Virus record (IMG/VR): IMGVR_UViG_3300025085_000041
Location: 1-48,227 of that record
Origin: a virus
Direction: 5' to 3' (one strand)
DNA length: 48,227 nt
Below the pieces are notes generated by a model that searched no databases, was not told the origin of the DNA, and saw only the letters and a program-made list of their open reading frames with translations. Below are positions 3,575 through 48,026 of this stretch, piece by piece. Positions within the stretch are counted from its first letter, which is position 1. Each line of letters opens with the position of its first letter. Position numbers and translations under genes: made by a program.

Positions 3575-3700
3575 TTTGCTACGAGCAACAGCACAGCACC
3601 AGGAACACGCGCCGAGGCCGTACCGCCTCGCCACGTTTCGCCCTTCCGCGGTTACTCCTGGCACGCTCTCCACCGCTCGCGCGCTCCATTGCTCCAGGAA
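3575..3700. other. GC-rich structured island (possible ncRNA or origin)
   Basis: Bases 3581-3700 are 67% G+C (80 of 120 counted) in an otherwise AT-rich genome. Inverted repeats include TTGCT-acg-AGCAA (3575-3587), CGAGGC/GCCTCG (3612-3617 with 3624-3629) and TCCTGG (3655-3660), which can pair with CCAGGA at either 3598-3603 or 3693-3698. There is no coding signal. Alternatives are a structured noncoding RNA, part of a replication origin, or a GC-rich repeat acquired from a host. Confidence 0.5.
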
Positions 3701-3897
3701 AGAGAAGATCCCTTTGTTAAACTTTTAATATTAGATCTTTTTTACACTTCAAGACATTGAAGGTTATACCTCCGCGAACGCTTAAAATATTAAATGTTTC
3801 TTATTTATATTGATTATAAATTACGTTTATAACTTGCACATTATCAGCACGTTACACGCTCAAGATATTTGTAACAAGTATATAATTTAAAAAAACG

Positions 3898-3928
3898 CTT
3901 GTATAACTTAAATATTAAACTATCTTTG
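3898..3928 (+). promoter_or_regulatory. Bacteroidota-type promoter of the rightward module
   Basis: TTG (3898-3900), a 20-base spacer, then TATCTTTG (3921-3928) match the Bacteroidota promoter consensus. The first gene starts 35 bases further on. This is the strongest candidate promoter for the plus-strand early and replication genes. Confidence 0.65.
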
Positions 3929-3963
3929 AACAAAATATAAACATTAACCCATAAATTAACATT

Positions 3964-4194
3964 ATGCATTCAATACAAGTAAAAGTAAAAAGCGAAGTTT
4001 TAAGACAGTTAAACAATATTAAAATAGACGCGCAAGAGGTTAAAAATTTAGTTGATTTCGGAAACCCAACAGAAAAAGCAATAACTGAAGATTTTACCGC
4101 GGAAAAATTAGAAGCGAACGGAGTTTTTGACCTTGTCAGTAATTTAGAAGACGAAATTAAAACCTTAAAAATGCTTTTAAACTTATTAAAATAA
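3964..4194 (+). CDS. Small hypothetical protein, first gene of the rightward operon
   Basis: Not recognised. The 76-residue protein is largely helical; the C-terminal heptad-like stretch (LVSNLEDEIKTLKMLLNLL, about 57-75) looks like a short coiled coil, suggesting oligomerisation or partner binding. It is the first gene after the promoter, so it is expected to be expressed immediately after infection. It is followed by the first intergenic hairpin element. Confidence 0.7.
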   Translation: MHSIQVKVKSEVLRQLNNIKIDAQEVKNLVDFGNPTEKAITEDFTAEKLEANGVFDLVSNLEDEIKTLKMLLNLLK

Positions 4195-4196
4195 TA

Positions 4197-4226
4197 TAAA
4201 CCAGGGCGCAGAAATGCGCCCACAAT
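4197..4226 (+). promoter_or_regulatory. Intergenic RNA hairpin, copy 1 (variant stem)
   Basis: TAAACCA precedes the stem GGGCGCA-GAAA-TGCGCCC (4204-4221) and ACAAT follows. The GAAA loop is a GNRA tetraloop. Compared with copies 2-4 the stem differs at two base pairs and both are compensated, keeping all seven pairs. It begins two bases after a stop codon and ends 14 bases before the next ATG. Confidence 0.85.
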
Positions 4227-4235
4227 TAAAAAACT

Positions 4236-4622
4236 ATGTTACGCACAAACTCAAAAAAATATCTTTCAAATATTCAAAATTATTTGCTTGATGCAATCAA
4301 TACAGACGACCACACAACAGAAGCAACAACACACGCGGAAAAATTGGCCTTTGTTATGTCTTGTTATGAATCAGAATTTAACCACAGATTCAACCAGGCA
4401 CGACACCCAAACGAACAAACGCGGTTTGCTCATTGGCTTGCTGGCCTTCCTTCGGTTTTAAATATTCCATTTTATAACGATGATATTGTAAAACTTGCAA
4501 AACGCCTCCAGGAAGTTGACACCTACCCAAACGAAAAAAACACCACAAAACGAATAGTTGAAAACTATTTCAATTTTATGGCGTACCACATTTTAAAACT
4601 AAATGCAAAACTTAATAAATAG
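4236..4622 (+). CDS. Hypothetical early protein (128 aa)
   Basis: Not assigned. The 128-residue protein is helical, with a His/Asn-rich centre (FNHRFNQARHPNEQTRFAHW) and a C-terminal segment IVENYFNFMAYHILKL. The spelling resembles small conserved proteins of Bacteroidota mobile elements, but I cannot name a family with certainty. It is preceded by hairpin copy 1 and followed by copy 2, so it shares whatever post-transcriptional control those elements give. Confidence 0.72.
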   Translation: MLRTNSKKYLSNIQNYLLDAINTDDHTTEATTHAEKLAFVMSCYESEFNHRFNQARHPNEQTRFAHWLAGLPSVLNIPFYNDDIVKLAKRLQEVDTYPNEKNTTKRIVENYFNFMAYHILKLNAKLNK

Positions 4623-4625
4623 ATC

Positions 4626-4654
4626 TAAACCAGGGAGCGGAAACGCTCCCACAA
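4626..4654 (+). promoter_or_regulatory. Intergenic RNA hairpin, copy 2
   Basis: TAAACCA then GGGAGCG-GAAA-CGCTCCC (4633-4650) then ACAA. A perfect 7-bp stem with a GAAA tetraloop, starting three bases after a stop codon and ending 14 bases before the next ATG. Confidence 0.85.
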
Positions 4655-4664
4655 ATTTAATTTT

Positions 4665-4910
4665 ATGACCACATTTGAAACACTTACAGAAGACCAAAGA
4701 AGCGCAATTTTAGAGGCTAAAAATTTGGTAACGATTGAAGACCTCAGCGCCTTAAGTTATGGCGAAGATTTAGAGCTAACAAATAAAGTTTGTTTATCTC
4801 ATTACTGCGAAGATGATATTATAGTTTTAAACCTTTCCGAAGAATGGGAAGAAGTATTTCAAATACTTTTTAATACAGATACCGAAGAAATAATTTTTGA
4901 ATCAATATAA
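4665..4910 (+). CDS. Small acidic hypothetical protein (81 aa)
   Basis: Not recognised. A strongly acidic 81-residue protein (many Asp/Glu, few Lys/Arg) with an N-terminal helix (TEDQRSAILEAKNL) and a hydrophobic, beta-like C-terminal part. Small acidic early phage proteins often bind or mimic host factors, but no specific partner can be inferred. It sits between hairpin copies 2 and 3. Confidence 0.7.
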   Translation: MTTFETLTEDQRSAILEAKNLVTIEDLSALSYGEDLELTNKVCLSHYCEDDIIVLNLSEEWEEVFQILFNTDTEEIIFESI

Positions 4911-4913
4911 TTA

Positions 4914-4942
4914 TAAACCAGGGAGCGGAAACGCTCCCACAA
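4914..4942 (+). promoter_or_regulatory. Intergenic RNA hairpin, copy 3
   Basis: TAAACCA then GGGAGCG-GAAA-CGCTCCC (4921-4938) then ACAAT. The stem is identical to copy 2. It begins four bases after a stop codon and ends 16 bases before the next ATG. Confidence 0.85.
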
Positions 4943-4954
4943 TACCGCAAAAAA

Positions 4955-5221
4955 ATGACTATCACAATGACAAGAACAAAGCAAGAAAAAAACCCAAGTA
5001 CAAAAACCACGTTTTTACCTGGTGTTACATTTGTTGAAGAAATCACAGAGCGCGAATATAATTTAATAACTAAAGATGAAACGCTTAAGGCCTTCAGAAG
5101 AGCAGGAGGCAAAGAACACGCGGAGCGCTCGTATACTTGTAGAGGCTACAACGTAGTAAAGTTAACAAGCACAAGCCCAACAAACCAAACAAGAATAATA
5201 AGAGAATTTAAATTTCAATAG
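4955..5221 (+). CDS. Small hypothetical protein (88 aa)
   Basis: Not recognised. An 88-residue Thr-rich, mildly basic protein ending in alternating hydrophobic/polar strands (NVVKLTSTS...IIREFKFQ), suggestive of a small beta-containing fold. It follows hairpin copy 3 and precedes the small lipoprotein gene by two bases. Confidence 0.65.
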   Translation: MTITMTRTKQEKNPSTKTTFLPGVTFVEEITEREYNLITKDETLKAFRRAGGKEHAERSYTCRGYNVVKLTSTSPTNQTRIIREFKFQ

Positions 5222-5223
5222 AT

Positions 5224-5388
5224 ATGAAAAAAATAATCACAATAGTAATTTGTTTAATATTTGCAACGCCAACGCTTACAAGTTGTAGCGCCTCCAGGCA
5301 ATGTAAAACGTCAAAGTATAAAAAGAAAATGTATACTAAAAAATGTTGGAATGCAAAACGCCAAAAATATACAAGATGCCGAAGATAA
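5224..5388 (+). CDS. Small basic lipoprotein (54 aa)
   Basis: A short frame encodes 54 residues with a textbook lipoprotein signal: MKK start, hydrophobic core IITIVICLIFATP, then lipobox LTSC with the acylated Cys at residue 21. The mature part is only about 34 residues, very basic (many Lys/Arg) and holds three further Cys. It would be anchored in the inner or outer membrane. Early phage lipoproteins such as T5 Llp block superinfection by masking receptors; that role is plausible here but only inferred. It starts two bases after the previous stop and overlaps the next gene by 13 bases. Confidence 0.7.
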   Translation: MKKIITIVICLIFATPTLTSCSASRQCKTSKYKKKMYTKKCWNAKRQKYTRCRR

Positions 5389-5540
5389 AAACAGAGATAA
5401 CGGAGTTAATAAAATTCCGCAATCAATACGAAAACGCGACAACAGAAGCGCGATTTATTGAGGCCGAAGAGTATTTATGTAAGGTACACGATAAATTTGG
5501 AACAATAGAAGTTTCAGCGATTAGAAATTTAATTAAGTAG
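5376..5540 (+). CDS. Small hypothetical protein (54 aa)
   Basis: Not recognised. I chose the ATG at 5376 (MPKIKTEIT), which overlaps the lipoprotein stop by 13 bases; a longer reading from 5343 would overlap the lipoprotein gene much further. The product is helical (TEARFIEAEEYLCKVHDKFG). It is followed by hairpin copy 4. Confidence 0.6.
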   Translation: MPKIKTEITELIKFRNQYENATTEARFIEAEEYLCKVHDKFGTIEVSAIRNLIK

Positions 5541-5542
5541 TA

Positions 5543-5571
5543 TAAACCAGGGAGCGGAAACGCTCCCATAA
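5543..5571 (+). promoter_or_regulatory. Intergenic RNA hairpin, copy 4
   Basis: TAAACCA then GGGAGCG-GAAA-CGCTCCC (5550-5567) then ATAAT. The stem and GAAA loop are identical to copies 2 and 3. It starts two bases after a stop codon and ends 14 bases before the next ATG. No later gene in the module carries the element. Confidence 0.85.
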
Positions 5572-5581
5572 TACCAAAGTT

Positions 5582-5848
5582 ATGAAGTATACAAATCAAT
5601 TTATTAAAATAGGTAACAAACAAGTAAAGCAAATAAATAAAACAGAGGCTAAAAAAGTATATGATAAAGGCCATGATCTTTATTTAAACGCTTGCAATAT
5701 GATGTTAAATAATTCCTGGACAAGCCCAATGTTATTAAATAACGGATCTTCTGAAAAGTTTGAAACAATGGTAAACGAGTACGAGTATTATAATTGTTGC
5801 AGTGAACGAGGAAAGTACGCAAATTATTTTATTAATGTAAATAAATAA
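5582..5848 (+). CDS. Hypothetical early protein with IKIGNK motif (88 aa)
   Basis: Not recognised. It shares its N-terminal pattern MxYxxxxIKIGNK with the next gene, and its NNSWTSPMLLNN segment with QNWSRPFLLRM in the gene after that, suggesting the three derive from duplicated or recombined modules. The C-terminus is Tyr/Cys-rich. It is the last gene preceded by the hairpin element. Confidence 0.68.
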   Translation: MKYTNQFIKIGNKQVKQINKTEAKKVYDKGHDLYLNACNMMLNNSWTSPMLLNNGSSEKFETMVNEYEYYNCCSERGKYANYFINVNK

Positions 5849-5851
5849 GTT

Positions 5852-6130
5852 ATGGAGTATAAGTCTAACATTATCAAAATAGGTAATAAAGAATTAATGA
5901 CAAGTGGTAACAGAGAGGTTATGAATATAGAAACAATAACAAACGATGACACGCGAGATGTCTCAATTAGAATTGTAGATTTTTTAATAAATAATGAATT
6001 TATAAAGTATAAAGAAGGAAATTATCCCTTCGAGATACAAGACGAAATACACGAAGAAATAAATAATTTAATAAACATAAGTGAACAAAACGAACAAGTA
6101 ATAATCGAAAGTAAAATAAATAAGTTATGA
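5852..6130 (+). CDS. Hypothetical early protein with IKIGNK motif (92 aa)
   Basis: Not recognised. A 92-residue acidic protein whose first 15 residues match the pattern of the preceding gene; the rest is helical and Glu/Asn-rich. It starts three bases after the previous stop and overlaps the next start by four bases (ATGA), so translation is probably coupled. Confidence 0.68.
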   Translation: MEYKSNIIKIGNKELMTSGNREVMNIETITNDDTRDVSIRIVDFLINNEFIKYKEGNYPFEIQDEIHEEINNLINISEQNEQVIIESKINKL

Positions 6131-6321
6131 GAGCATATAAACGAAGAGTAAAATACACGCAAGAGTATATTAACAAATCAGATCTAAAGGAAATAAATAA
6201 AATTATAATGGATCAAAATTGGAGTAGGCCTTTTTTATTAAGAATGTGTTTTGATAGAGCGCTTGAATTAGGATACAAGGGAACATTTCCAGTAACTAAA
6301 TGGGATACCGATGAAGTTTAA
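6127..6321 (+). CDS. Small hypothetical protein (64 aa)
   Basis: Not recognised. A basic 64-residue protein with an aromatic segment (QNWSRPFLLRMCFDRALELG) that parallels a segment two genes upstream. ATGA overlap with the previous gene and an 11-base overlap with the next show tight packing. Confidence 0.62.
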   Translation: MRAYKRRVKYTQEYINKSDLKEINKIIMDQNWSRPFLLRMCFDRALELGYKGTFPVTKWDTDEV

Positions 6322-6571
6322 ATTAAGAGCGACAAGCAACGTAAAAGCGTTTTACCTGGCCAAATATTCAACAGATGAATTAGGCCAGGAAATCGATAGC
6401 AATATAAATTTCAAAATGGTTTTTGAATGCCTTGACAACTATCAAGAAATATACGACTTAATAGGCGTTTGCGATAGCCTGGTTAGGGAAAGAATTTTCG
6501 AAGCGCTTGCCGAAATAATGAATGTAGAATATGACTACATATATCACCAATGGTTAGGTAATTCAAATTAA
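6311..6571 (+). CDS. Small hypothetical protein (86 aa)
   Basis: Not recognised. An acidic, mostly helical 86-residue protein with a single short beta-like start (MKFKLRATSNVKAFYLA). It is followed by a 77-base gap with no clear signal; a near-miss promoter box (TATATTGC) lies there. Confidence 0.65.
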   Translation: MKFKLRATSNVKAFYLAKYSTDELGQEIDSNINFKMVFECLDNYQEIYDLIGVCDSLVRERIFEALAEIMNVEYDYIYHQWLGNSN

Positions 6572-12842: not shown

Positions 12843-15254
12843 ATGGACATAACCATATTTAAAGACATAAAACAGACATCACAACCCTTCTACAGAAATA
12901 TAAACCTGGTGTTAAAAAGAATACAAGATGGATCTTCCAAGGATATAGTTAAAAAAATACGTGCCGAAAAAGATAAGAATAATAGGAACATATTAAAGCA
13001 AAAACTACCAGCAATTTGTTTTAGTGGAAAATTTACAAAACGAAATGACAAAGCTTTAAAAGAGCATAGTGGTTTGATATGCTTGGACTTTGATGGGTAC
13101 AAGTCAAGTAAAGATTTATTACAAGAAAAAGAAAAGCTTTCAAAAGATAAATATGTTTATGCAGTATTTATTTCTCCAAGTGGTAATGGCTTAAAAGTTT
13201 TAGTTAAAATACCTCCAATTACAGAGAATCATAAAAGCTACTTCCTAAGCCTTCAAAAACATTTTGATAGCGATTACTTCGATAAGTCTTGTAAAAACGT
13301 CTCAAGAGTCTGCTATGAGTCTTATGATCCATTAATTCACATAAACGCTCAGTCAAGTTTATGGGATAGCATACAAGAACAAGAATACAACGAAGTAAAT
13401 AAGAATACTGATATACCAACAATACCAGTAACGGATGAAAATAAAATAGTAGAAATATTAGTTAAATGGTGGGAAAAGAAATTTCCCATGAATGAAGGAG
13501 AAAGAAACAATAATGCTTATGTTTTGGCTGCCGCTTTAAATGATTTTGGAGTATACCAATCTTTAGCTGAGTCAGTATTAAATAATTATCAAACAAAAAA
13601 TTTTGATAGAGAAGAGATAAGAAGGACAATACGAAGTGCTTATTCTAATAAGCATAATTTTGGTACAAAGTATTATGAAGATGAAGATCGCCTTAACAAC
13701 TTAAGAATGAAGTTAAAAAGAGGTGTACCAAAAAAAGAAATTAGATCTCAATTGCAAGAGTCAGATATTGAGGTCGCTACCATAGACAATGTGTTGGCTC
13801 GTTTAGATGAAGAAAATGCAAACAATCAGTTTTGGACAAAAAACGACAAAGGAGTTATAAAAATAGTTCACATACTTTTCAAGCAATTCCTGGAGGAGAA
13901 TGGATTTTATAAGTTTAACCCTGAAGGAAGTAAGAATTATGTTTTTGTAAGAGTAACTAACAACTTAATAGATCACACTTCTGAGAAAGAAATAAAAGAT
14001 TTTATTTTAAACTATCTATTAGAAGTAGACGATCTAAGTGTTTATAATTATTTTGCTGAACATACCAGGTATTTTAGAGAAGAGTTTTTAACCCTTCTGT
14101 CATCTATTGCGGTTTATTTTATAGAAGATACAAAAGATAGTGCCTATCTGTATTATAAAAATTGTGCAGTAAAAATAACTAACAATCAACTTATAAAAAT
14201 CGACTACTTAGATTTAGGTGGTTACGTATGGAAAGATCACGTAATAGATAGAGTTTTTAATGAATGTGATGCAGAAAGTTGTGATTACCAGCAATTTATT
14301 AAAAACATTTGTGGTAAAGATGATAACAGAGTTAATTCTATGAAGTCAACAATAGGGTATTTACTTCATGCCTGGAAAAACTTATCCTACTGTCCAGCAG
14401 TAATATTAAATGATGAGGTAATATCAGATAATCCAGAAGGAGGAACAGGTAAGGGTATTTTTATGAACGCCTTGAGTCATATGAAAAAATTAGTATTTAT
14501 AGATGGTAAGTCGTTTAATTTTGAAAAAAGCTTTGCTTATCAAACTGTTAGTGTTGATACTCAAATATTATGTTTTGATGATGTGAAGAAGCATTTTGAC
14601 TTTGAAAGATTATTTTCTGTTGTTACAGAAGGCTTAGTCCTGGAAAAGAAAAATAAAGATGCTATAAAAATTCCATTTAGTAAATCACCTAAAGTCTCTA
14701 TAACAACAAATTACGCTATCAAAGGTAAAGGATCATCTTTTGAAAGAAGAAAATGGGAATTAGAATTAGCCCAGCACTACACCAAAGATTTTACACCACT
14801 TATGGAATTTGGAAAACTTATGTTTGGAGAATGGGATGATGATGAATGGTGTCAATTTGATAATTATATGATAAGTTGTGTTCAAACTTATATGAATCAT
14901 GGCCTTATAAAATCAAAATTTATAAACCTAAAGACAAGACAATTATCAGCAGAAACTTGTCACGAATTTTTAGAATGGAGCGGAGAAATAGGTGGAGGAT
15001 CACAACACGAAAAATTAAAGCAAGCTGGAAGGGTATACAAGAGTGACCTATATTTAGATTTTGTTGAAGACAATCCAGACTTTGCTCCAAAGTCTAAGTT
15101 TACTGTTTCACGAACTAAATTTTATAAATGGCTTACTGCTTATTCTGTATACAAATACAATTGCAAACCTGAAGAAGATAGAGATTCACAAGGTAGATGG
15201 ATAAGGTTTAGAAGTAAGCACGAGTTAGAAGAAAACGGAAGATTAGATTTTTAA
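12843..15254 (+). CDS. Primase (VirE/BT4734-type) fused to SF3-like helicase
   Basis: An 803-residue replication protein. The N-terminal region (about 55-170) has the VirE_N/BT4734 primase-like pattern LICLDFD (78-84, Asp82 and Asp84), SPSGNGLKVLVKI (111-123) and FDKSCKNVSRVCYESYDP. The C-terminal half is a helicase with Walker A GGTGKG (533-538) and Walker B ILCFDD (Asp579, Asp580), followed by an SF3-like TTN sensor (VSITTNYAIKG) and an arginine-rich GSSFERRKWEL segment. It should synthesise primers and unwind the phage DNA. Such fusions are typical of Bacteroidota phages and elements. It is preceded by the duplicated regulatory element and followed after one base by the SF2 helicase gene. 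Confidence 0.88.
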   Translation: MDITIFKDIKQTSQPFYRNINLVLKRIQDGSSKDIVKKIRAEKDKNNRNILKQKLPAICFSGKFTKRNDKALKEHSGLICLDFDGYKSSKDLLQEKEKLSKDKYVYAVFISPSGNGLKVLVKIPPITENHKSYFLSLQKHFDSDYFDKSCKNVSRVCYESYDPLIHINAQSSLWDSIQEQEYNEVNKNTDIPTIPVTDENKIVEILVKWWEKKFPMNEGERNNNAYVLAAALNDFGVYQSLAESVLNNYQTKNFDREEIRRTIRSAYSNKHNFGTKYYEDEDRLNNLRMKLKRGVPKKEIRSQLQESDIEVATIDNVLARLDEENANNQFWTKNDKGVIKIVHILFKQFLEENGFYKFNPEGSKNYVFVRVTNNLIDHTSEKEIKDFILNYLLEVDDLSVYNYFAEHTRYFREEFLTLLSSIAVYFIEDTKDSAYLYYKNCAVKITNNQLIKIDYLDLGGYVWKDHVIDRVFNECDAESCDYQQFIKNICGKDDNRVNSMKSTIGYLLHAWKNLSYCPAVILNDEVISDNPEGGTGKGIFMNALSHMKKLVFIDGKSFNFEKSFAYQTVSVDTQILCFDDVKKHFDFERLFSVVTEGLVLEKKNKDAIKIPFSKSPKVSITTNYAIKGKGSSFERRKWELELAQHYTKDFTPLMEFGKLMFGEWDDDEWCQFDNYMISCVQTYMNHGLIKSKFINLKTRQLSAETCHEFLEWSGEIGGGSQHEKLKQAGRVYKSDLYLDFVEDNPDFAPKSKFTVSRTKFYKWLTAYSVYKYNCKPEEDRDSQGRWIRFRSKHELEENGRLDF

Positions 15255-15255
15255 T

Positions 15256-16485
15256 ATGGAGTTTAGAGACTATCAAAAAGAAATAATTAATAAAGCCAAG
15301 CCTCTATTGTTAAAAGATAAATTTGTTTATCTTGCAATGGAGGTAAGAACTGGTAAAACTCTCACGAGCTTGGGTGTAAGTGCGCTTTTGCCAGTCTCTA
15401 ACCTTTTATTTATTACTAAGAAAAAAGCTATAAGCAGTATACAAGATGACTATAAACTTCTTGATCCTTCTTACAATATTACTGTTATTAACTACGAATC
15501 ACTTCATAAAATAGACCAGAGAGGCTGGGATATGGTAATCTGTGATGAGGCCCATGGTATGGGAGCGTTTCCAAAAAGAAACAAAAGATCAACGCAAGTT
15601 CGTTCTTTGATCTTAGAAAACAATCCTTTTGTAATATTCTTATCTGGAACACCAACACCTGAATCATTTAGTCAAATGTACCATCAAGTATCAGTAGTTC
15701 GTAAACATCCATTTAGTGATTATGTAAACTTTTATAAGTTTTCTAAACAATACGTAAATGTTAAGCAAAGAAAAATCAATTCTCTTTACATAAACGATTA
15801 CTCAGATGGCCTACAATCAATTATTGATGAGATGAAACCACATACTATTTCTTATACTCAAAAAGAAGCTGGGTTTAAAATTAACACTAAAGAACATATT
15901 TTAGAAGTAGAGATGAGTCCGATGACATATCAACTAACAAGTAAATTAAAAAAACATTTAGTTATTGAAGGAAGTGAAGACGTGATATTAGCTGATACTC
16001 CAGTAAAACTTATGATGAAGCTTCATCAAATGTATTCAGGAACTGTAAAATTTGAATCAGGAAACTCTATGATTATTGATTTAAGTAAAGCAGAGTTTAT
16101 ACACGATAACTTTGCTGATGCTAAAATCGGTATATTTTATAAATTCAAGGAAGAGTTAAATGCACTAAAAGAAGTTTACGGAGATGGTTTATGTACTGAT
16201 TTAGAAACATTTAACGAAACAAATAAAACCATAGCTTTGCAAATCGTAAGCGGAAGAGAAGGAATATCTCTACGGAAAGCTGAATGTCTGGTATATTATA
16301 ATATTGATTTTTCAGCTACCAGTTACTGGCAGTCCAGGGATCGTATGACAACTAAAGAAAGATTGGAAAGCGATGTTTATTGGGTATTTTCAAAAGATGG
16401 TATAGAAAAAGAAATATACAAGGCTGTTACAAAGAAAAAAGATTACACCCTAAGACATTTTAAAAGAGATCTATTGTCCTTATGA
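15256..16485 (+). CDS. SF2 DEAH-type helicase/translocase
   Basis: A 409-residue SF2 ATPase. An N-terminal Q-like motif (FRDYQKEII), Walker A RTGKT (31-35), Walker B DEAH (97-100), motif III SGTPTP (130-135) and C-terminal motif VI QSRDRM (about 358-363) are in order. The arrangement is that of small phage Snf2-like or Rad54/T4 UvsW-like translocases, without accessory domains. It probably remodels replication or recombination intermediates. It directly follows the primase-helicase gene and overlaps the next gene by four bases. Confidence 0.88.
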   Translation: MEFRDYQKEIINKAKPLLLKDKFVYLAMEVRTGKTLTSLGVSALLPVSNLLFITKKKAISSIQDDYKLLDPSYNITVINYESLHKIDQRGWDMVICDEAHGMGAFPKRNKRSTQVRSLILENNPFVIFLSGTPTPESFSQMYHQVSVVRKHPFSDYVNFYKFSKQYVNVKQRKINSLYINDYSDGLQSIIDEMKPHTISYTQKEAGFKINTKEHILEVEMSPMTYQLTSKLKKHLVIEGSEDVILADTPVKLMMKLHQMYSGTVKFESGNSMIIDLSKAEFIHDNFADAKIGIFYKFKEELNALKEVYGDGLCTDLETFNETNKTIALQIVSGREGISLRKAECLVYYNIDFSATSYWQSRDRMTTKERLESDVYWVFSKDGIEKEIYKAVTKKKDYTLRHFKRDLLSL

Positions 16486-46993: not shown

Positions 46994-47460
46994 TTTTTTT
47001 TATTTAAAAAAGCAACATGAACCAATCTTGATTCATCATCTTTACCAAAATTATTTAAAGTGTTTCGTGAATGATTTATATTTGATGGAAATATAAAAAC
47101 AGAATTGTATGTTGCATTATATACTAACATATCATTCTTGTTTTCATCATACAGAGTTGTTCCGTATCCACTTGGATAAACTTTATTTAAATACAGAATA
47201 GCGGTTAATTCACCCATCATTTCATCAGTATGAATATAGTTAGGTTCTATTTGACCTAAAGGGGATTTACGAACAAAATTTAAAACAATATCATATTCAG
47301 GTATAGTTTTGGCAAGAAAATTATAAAACTCATCTTTACCTTTTTTACAAACATTTTTAAATAAATTGTCTCCGTCAGGTAAATCATAAAAACCTTCTTT
47401 TAGTATTTTATTTACATAATCGTCAGGATTATAAATAACTTCTTCATAAAATTTAATCAT
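46990..47460 (-). CDS. 2OG-Fe(II) oxygenase (prolyl 4-hydroxylase-like)
   Basis: A 156-residue protein with the iron-binding facial triad of this family: H77-x-D79 (YIHTDE), the distal His130 (INHSRN) and Arg145 (ESRLVHVAF) for 2-oxoglutarate. The strands between (GELTAILYLNKVY, VYNATYNSVFIFPSN) fit the double-stranded beta helix of P4H-like enzymes, which hydroxylate protein side chains or nucleic acids. The substrate is unknown. It overlaps both neighbours by four bases (ATGA), giving a translationally coupled trio with the GroES-like and SET-domain genes. Marine phages often carry such oxygenases. Confidence 0.85.
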   Translation of the reverse strand: MIKFYEEVIYNPDDYVNKILKEGFYDLPDGDNLFKNVCKKGKDEFYNFLAKTIPEYDIVLNFVRKSPLGQIEPNYIHTDEMMGELTAILYLNKVYPSGYGTTLYDENKNDMLVYNATYNSVFIFPSNINHSRNTLNNFGKDDESRLVHVAFLNKKK

Positions 47461-48026
47461 AACACTACAGTTATATTTTTAGTAAACATCCTGTAAAGCT
47501 TTTCTTCATCAATAACAAACTCATATTCAGATTCTGGCTCGTATAATACTTGATCACCAATCTTAACCCCTTTCTCTATCAACTCGTCATTTATATACCT
47601 AACAGTACCTCTTAATGGTTCGTTCTTAGAATTTTTGTTTAAATAAGAGTTTTGAGCTTCTAATGGTTTAATAAAGCAATATTTATCATACCCCATCCAT
47701 TTAGATTTTTCGTTAGTTTTGTAAAGATAAAATTGATCAGGATCGACAAAGAATAGATCGTCTTTAAAAAAGCTTTTACCGCTTTTTCTACGACCATACA
47801 TATCATTATAAAACTTAAAAACATTATGATGTACTAAAAGTATGTTACCTTCTTTTATAGGGCCTGTGTAATTAATCGGAGTTGCTATAACAATAGCAAA
47901 GCGATTTGAAGATTTGTGATCTTCTTCAGAAGTACTGGTAATAAATTCTATATCACCATAAGATTTAATATTGTCATACCTTCTATTGTTATAAGGCTTA
48001 ACAATAAACGAGTAAGGAGATTTCAT
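47457..48026 (-). CDS. GroES-like (Cpn10-type) protein with inserted domain
   Basis: A 189-residue protein. The first strand SFIVKPYNN, the GPIKEGNILLVHH segment (55-67), and the C-terminal GVKIGDQVLYEPESEYEFVIDEEKLYRMF...NITVVL (153-189) follow the GroES pattern V-K-x-G-D-x-V-L-Y ... I-x-x-E-x-Y ... I-x-x-V-L. The middle (HHNVFKFYNDMYGRR, FFKDDLFFVDPDQFYLYK) is an insertion that I recall from proteins of marine phages annotated as co-chaperonin GroES. It could cap the phage GroEL with a larger lid. The normal 103-residue GroES is also present, so the two may serve different clients. It starts one base into the upstream stop (TAATG). Confidence 0.7.
   Translation of the reverse strand: MKSPYSFIVKPYNNRRYDNIKSYGDIEFITSTSEEDHKSSNRFAIVIATPINYTGPIKEGNILLVHHNVFKFYNDMYGRRKSGKSFFKDDLFFVDPDQFYLYKTNEKSKWMGYDKYCFIKPLEAQNSYLNKNSKNEPLRGTVRYINDELIEKGVKIGDQVLYEPESEYEFVIDEEKLYRMFTKNITVVL

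Follow-up and report, generated by a model that had tools for sequence, protein, structure and literature searches.

A family of GNRA-type hairpins between the early genes of unrelated phages, tentatively read as a folded spacer between cistrons

Intercistronic C(UUCG)G hairpins were reportedly found in T4 mRNA by Tuerk in 1988, and the PeSLs of T4-like phages are said, by Arbiol in 2010 and by Comeau in 2014, to combine an early promoter with a stem-loop. PeSL cassettes of T4-like phages are also cited in PMC4503421. Here, we analyzed a virus record of 48,227 bases (this whole stretch is referred to as the window), which shows crAss-like features, namely a muzzle C-terminal domain, a portal, and a terminase, and whose named primase relatives are, for the most part, phages of Bacteroidota. 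Its early rightward operon carries the same hairpin at four gene junctions. The features of this region are as follows, all on the + strand:

3899 to 3928 (approximate), +, Bacteroidota-type promoter TTG-N19-TATCTTTG heading the operon; pattern match 305 nt 5' of stem 1, with 0.14 expected
3964 to 4194, +, g1, first operon gene, 76 amino acids; no family found
4195 to 4228, +, element 1, TATAAACCA-GGGCGCA-GAAA-TGCGCCC-ACAATTA, at the g1/g2 junction; 47.0 bits with covariance model R2
4236 to 4622, +, g2, 128 amino acids, phrog_11100 (unknown function); downstream of element 1
4624 to 4657, +, element 2, TCTAAACCA-GGGAGCG-GAAA-CGCTCCC-ACAAATT, at the g2/g3 junction; unit absent in L005
4665 to 4910, +, g3, 81 amino acids, between elements 2 and 3; absent from L012 along with one element
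4912 to 4945, +, element 3, TATAAACCA-GGGAGCG-GAAA-CGCTCCC-ACAATAC, at the g3/g4 junction
4955 to 5221, +, g4, 88 amino acids, phrog_16226 (unknown function); downstream of element 3
5343 to 5540, +, g6; upstream of element 4
5541 to 5574, +, element 4, TATAAACCA-GGGAGCG-GAAA-CGCTCCC-ATAATAC, at the g6/g7 junction
5582 to 5848, +, g7, 88 amino acids, downstream of element 4; no family found

Outside this operon, the minus strand of the window encodes a GroEL-type chaperonin (Pfam Cpn60; 1249-2877) and a protein with a weak GroES-like match at its C terminus (47457-48026); in phage ctfjg026, the GroEL-type and GroES-like genes are neighbors.

All four hairpins that a sequence-only reading had placed in these gaps were confirmed, with stems at 4204-4221, 4633-4650, 4921-4938, and 5550-5567. 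Each consists of a perfect 7-bp stem closed by a GAAA loop, flanked by TAAACCA on the 5' side and by ACAA (once ATAA) on the 3' side. The stop codon precedes TAAACCA by 2 to 3 nt, within the 2 to 4 nt first noted, while the next ATG follows the end of the hairpin by 14, 14, 16, and 14 nt for elements 1 to 4. As had been described, the stem differences among the copies are compensated, with C-G for A-T and A-T for G-C. The view that the hairpins are not terminators also holds for these four copies, in which the stem is followed by ACAA or ATAA and no T-run is present. RNA folding predicted about −15 kcal/mol (z of about −5), and no shuffled sequence was equally stable. Among the 10 same-strand junctions of 25 to 75 nt in the window, strong hairpins were found in four, as compared to 0.5 expected from shuffles, and these were precisely the four elements. 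A loose pattern tolerating up to three mismatches matched 11 times in the window against 5.6 expected, a count that is by itself unimpressive; the matches with at most one mismatch were exactly the four elements. Rfam 15 gave no family at or above the gathering cutoff in the window and seven other loci, a lax Rfam scan of 3700-6400 returned only chance-level matches located elsewhere or in the wrong form, and no tRNA was found. The initial observation is thus exact, and it is understated, as the elements belong to a family present in about a dozen unrelated phage groups.

Members of the family take the form of a stop codon, a few bases, AACCA, a G-rich stem of 6 to 8 bp, a GNRA loop, ACAA, about 11 bases, and ATG. 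A pattern scan of IMG/VR detected the same element in the close relatives L005 to L013, and looser scans detected it in unrelated contigs; the window holds four copies and its relatives one to four. The decisive IMG/VR scan used the pattern ACCA-GGG-n(3-5)-GNRA-n(3-5)-CCC-ACAA, which demands pairing at three bases only. Full pairing was found in 28 of 33 sites with 4+4 free bases, 10 of 14 with 5+5, and 4 of 6 with 3+3, these being counts of sites rather than of independent lineages because some contigs are near duplicates. Thirty-four fully paired 4+4 and 5+5 sites are preceded by a stop codon and followed by an ATG. The control with unequal arms gave 42 readings, 12 of which had the stop/ATG context and were the same hairpins in another register; only one of the other 30 had that context (an imperfect hairpin in L256).

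The search patterns account for part of the apparent conservation of spacing and flanks, but copies that were not selected by them agree. The flanks are kept in the second copy of L128, in the second copies of L301 and L308 (GGAGGGGA stem), and in Bacteroides phage Versailles, whose hairpin AACCA-GTAGGGTA-GCAA-TCCCCTAC-ACAATAC has one stem mismatch; none of these copies could have been picked up by the patterns. Thus, the AACCA and ACAA flanks are genuine and do not result from search bias alone. Model R2 also detects eight-bp members that lie outside the model. In 395 Bacteroidota genomes, an R2 search yielded a match at E ≤0.003 in a single genome, although the stricter filters of this search mean that weak host copies could be missed. 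This match adjoins genes that, judged by eye, resemble those of mobile elements. No R2 match up to an E of 5 was obtained in T4 (1-50 kb), crAss001 (1-50 kb), or ctfjg026. A freer pattern lacking GGG/CCC gave more than 100 hits among the matches listed, mostly due to chance, and no new members, while a pattern scan of the genome collection gave three matches, none with a full stem. BLAST of the phage collection, queried with either the element or the early region, returned nothing usable, and the L346 gene-1 protein had no usable relatives among phages and the 395 Bacteroidota genomes.

Some of the small genes of the operon have relatives in Vibrio phages: g4 is 44% identical to ORF18 of Vibrio phage ICP1, and g2 is about 38% identical to its counterparts in Vibrio phage helene 12B3 and relatives. 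Small early genes therefore travel between phages of distant hosts. No canonical element occurs in the early region of ICP1, which shares g4, or in that of helene 12B3, which shares g2. ICP1 (L381) has a repeated early-region hairpin of its own, TGTGAC-ACAA/GAAA-GTCACA, at 2759-2774 and 4305-4320, one copy of which lies directly 3' of the ORF18 stop codon. Two further contigs carry variant hairpins. L351 (contig G034, 16848-18255), with Shine-Dalgarno–like leaders, has five at four neighboring junctions, including one tandem pair (UUCG, then GAAA), with the flanks AACCAACC and ACAAC. L353 (contig G031) has, near a canonical element, two similar hairpins that follow AACC and carry T-runs (14478-14495 and 15564-15582), would-be terminators placed 13 to 16 nt 5' of ATG; terminators and the element may thus be linked in evolution.

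Compensatory change, which had been proposed from two base pairs, is now seen at 10 doubly changed pairs across 25 distinct members with stems of seven or eight bp; the further copies with further such changes that the sequence-only reading had called for thus exist, and in unrelated phages. In the seven-bp alignment (A3; 16 distinct members), all 112 cells are paired, and the four variable pairs all change on both sides, giving 25 doubly changed cells, while the three basal G-C pairs are invariant, mostly because the search pattern imposed them. The covariation score of A3 was 0.636 as compared to 0.124 in shuffles, none of 500 of which reached it, and slid controls scored about 0.10 or less. 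In the eight-bp alignment (A4; nine members), six of the eight pairs are doubly changed (17 cells). The claim that structure rather than sequence is conserved was therefore right about structure, but sequence is conserved as well, in the AACCA and ACAA flanks and the base of the stem. Family loops are GAAA, GCAA, GTAA, GCGA, and GAGA. L306 carries both a UUCG and a GAAA hairpin with similar flanks, UUCG being otherwise found only in unrelated contigs, and the stem of L119 contains a U-G pair. The GNRA loops, the UUCG cousin, and the U-G pair suggest that RNA, and not DNA, is under selection. At the level of sequence comparison, these data show the hairpin structure to be selected and conserved across the family.

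The element also has a constant position relative to the genes around it. The stem typically begins 6 to 11 nt after the stop codon, and ATG follows it by 14 to 18 nt in most phages and by 21 to 36 nt in some. In ten contigs, including the window, a TTG-N16-21-TAnnTTTG promoter lies 305 to 532 nt 5' of the first copy (0 to 0.14 expected in each); thus, the first copy comes after the first gene of an operon with a host-type promoter. The element prefers this first junction, and many junctions of the same operons have none.

Comparisons between relatives provide natural tests of the unit. L005 keeps g2 and g3 (95 and 83% identical) but is missing exactly the 38-nt unit of element 2, and its two genes are separated by the 4 nt TATT only. 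The unit therefore converts a junction of the coupling type, with almost abutting genes, into one at which the genes are set apart. Units also come and go together with genes, as g3 and one element do in L012. L345 and L346 have gene 1 and the element in common and diverge 15 nt past the stem; homology stops 5 nt after the stem between L345 and either L118 or L253, and it resumes 5 nt before the stem between L128 and L283. Hence, in this comparison of junctions that carry the element, homology ends or resumes at or near element edges, with clean gain or loss of a unit seen once. When L345, L346, L118, and L253 are compared, it is the upstream gene that the element accompanies. By visual inspection, L345, L118, and L253 encode similar gene-1 proteins, although they differ in stem or loop.

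The distances from the stop codon to the stem and from the stem to ATG approximate the reach of a ribosome at a stop codon and at a start codon, respectively, so the hairpin could remain folded with one ribosome terminating on its 5' side and another initiating on its 3' side. We tentatively favor, at somewhat less than even confidence, the view that the element is a cis-acting punctuation hairpin of phage early polycistronic mRNA, a folded spacer that uncouples neighboring cistrons. The folded hairpin would block the terminating ribosome from sliding to the next start, prevent upstream mRNA from pairing with the A-rich, unstructured leader needed by Bacteroidota genes that lack Shine-Dalgarno sites, and seal the 3' end of the upstream cistron, perhaps stabilizing or capping the upstream mRNA; no phage protein would be required. 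Around the start sites of Flavobacterium johnsoniae, structure is low between −20 and +20, and an A at −12/−13 is beneficial (PMC6847099); the ACAA of the element falls at about that position. These start data and the ribosome-sized distances are therefore what favor a cis-acting spacer or leader insulator. Counted for it are also the compensated stems, the RNA-type loops, the stop/ATG spacing that is constant over unrelated phages, the unequal-arm control, and the L005 junction; counted against it are the retention of the element with the upstream gene, its preference for the first junction, the ATG distances of 21 to 36 nt in some members, the pattern-imposed share of spacing and flank conservation, and the many same-operon junctions without the element. 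A bolder version, in which the hairpin and ACAA replace Shine-Dalgarno positioning in hosts lacking it by docking at the mRNA exit site of the ribosome (about −11 to −17) and actively recruiting or positioning the 30S subunit on phage early genes, seems to us quite unlikely. If true, it would give phages a translational advantage over host mRNA and define a widespread undescribed RNA class.

The main rival to the spacer is selective processing or stabilization of the upstream cistron, which we judge somewhat unlikely. An endonuclease would cut the message within the A-rich sequence that follows the stem, and the hairpin would shield the upstream 3' end from exonucleases, so that first and later early proteins would be made in unequal amounts. 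Such a role is proven for the intergenic stem-loops of the cip-cel operon (PMC10311766). Both the tight placement just past the stop codon and the A-rich sequence 3' of the stem agree with it, and the preference for the first junction past the promoter and the retention of the element with gene 1 while downstream genes change would suit a 3' stabilizer equally well. It leaves the equally tight ATG distance in Bacteroidota phages unexplained, and stems of 6 to 8 bp are short for known double-strand nucleases. A translational operator is an unlikely explanation. It supposes that a phage or host RNA-binding protein reads the flanks and the GNRA loop and represses or activates the following genes as a regulon, in line with the presence of multiple copies per phage ahead of different genes, with flanks and a loop class that recur, and with stems that are concerted within a phage. 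Against it, stems differ freely in both length and sequence, a UUCG loop occurs (L306), and the members are found in unrelated phages with no known common regulator. With a match in just one of 395 Bacteroidota genomes, a host regulon is unlikely; so is a common phage-encoded binding protein, given the spread over crAss-like, Bacteroides-type, and Shine-Dalgarno–using phages. The constant stop/start spacing and this spread would thus favor cis-acting punctuation over a phage-specific regulator.

Homology breaks at element edges, the loss of exactly one unit in L005, and the coming and going of units with genes would also be expected of a DNA-level recombination joint, at which identical short repeats at gene borders permit swaps of early cassettes, as proposed for PeSLs. 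Recombination would need identity rather than compensatory stems, an RNA-type loop, or fixed ribosome-sized spacing, and breakpoints at gene borders are expected anyway; we find this very doubtful. Least probable, to the point of being hardly credible, is a transcription signal, either an N4-type hairpin promoter or a terminator or attenuator without a U-run. The early promoters of N4 are hairpins, and the T-run hairpins of L353 at 14478 and 15564 suggest that some cousins may terminate, but canonical members have no T-run, and a host-type promoter already heads the operon. An N4-like promoter was rejected, as the large proteins of the window show no RNA polymerase family or motif and the stems are too variable for a promoter read by its sequence.

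Whatever its role, an RNA element common to unrelated Bacteroidota phages can now be described by a defined consensus and by covariance models that work, and its carriers include one cultured isolate, Bacteroides phage Versailles. The window and L005 form a natural with/without pair for cistron separation where ribosomes ignore Shine-Dalgarno sites. If the function holds, Bacteroides genetics would gain an insulator part that is ready to use.

Phage ctfjg026 (MW202828.1; L027 = 36000-60850), a primase relative, has in its early half at least 15 copies of GTGTCGTTAACGACAC, a perfect palindrome of 16 to 18 bp (for example, at L027 8809-8824, 12929-12946, and 13874-13891). Six junction copies in the same early module have similar stop/ATG spacing, but the palindrome has no separate loop and also lies inside genes, including the primase. 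It was therefore rejected as a homologue of the window element, and it is more likely a site bound at the DNA level, for example an operator or a stoperator. In hankyphages L377 (BK010646.1, p00; 1767-1850) and L378 (3631-3714), a tRNA-Arg(CCT)-like gene fills a junction that follows the homologue of the gene preceding the L308 hairpin; this tRNA could fill a similar junction role.

Among the described systems, intrinsic terminators are also short GC-rich hairpins 3' of a gene, but the element has no U-tract, and a gene of the same operon starts 14 to 18 nt downstream. Stem-loops of the cip-cel type are likewise GC-rich, located between cistrons, and devoid of a U-run, but they are bacterial, with diverse stems of other lengths and proven cleavage (PMC10311766). 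PeSLs resemble the element as short stem-loop units between early genes, in many copies. Genes are shuffled at the borders of PeSLs, and the breakpoints at element edges and the one clean gain or loss of a unit may reflect similar shuffling here. In contrast to PeSLs, which contain a promoter, the window element has none of its own: upstream of elements 1 to 3, TTG-N-TAnnTTTG matched only at the head of the operon and at no site specific to an element. The hosts of the family are, moreover, mostly Bacteroidota, and the AACCA-stem-GNRA-ACAA consensus differs. The C(UUCG)G hairpins of T4 are also stable tetraloop hairpins directly past stop codons in a phage polycistronic mRNA; in contrast, the loop is GNRA in nearly all family members (GAAA in the window), not UUCG, and the flanks and ATG spacing recur. 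The suggestion that no element of this form had been described is thus borne out in part. No description of the family's consensus, loop rule, spacing, or host range was found in Rfam or in the searched literature, but with the T4 tetraloop hairpins and PeSLs known, the form is not without precedent. Stable intercistronic hairpins of phages are a known kind, within which the AACCA-stem-GNRA-ACAA family itself looks to be a new member.
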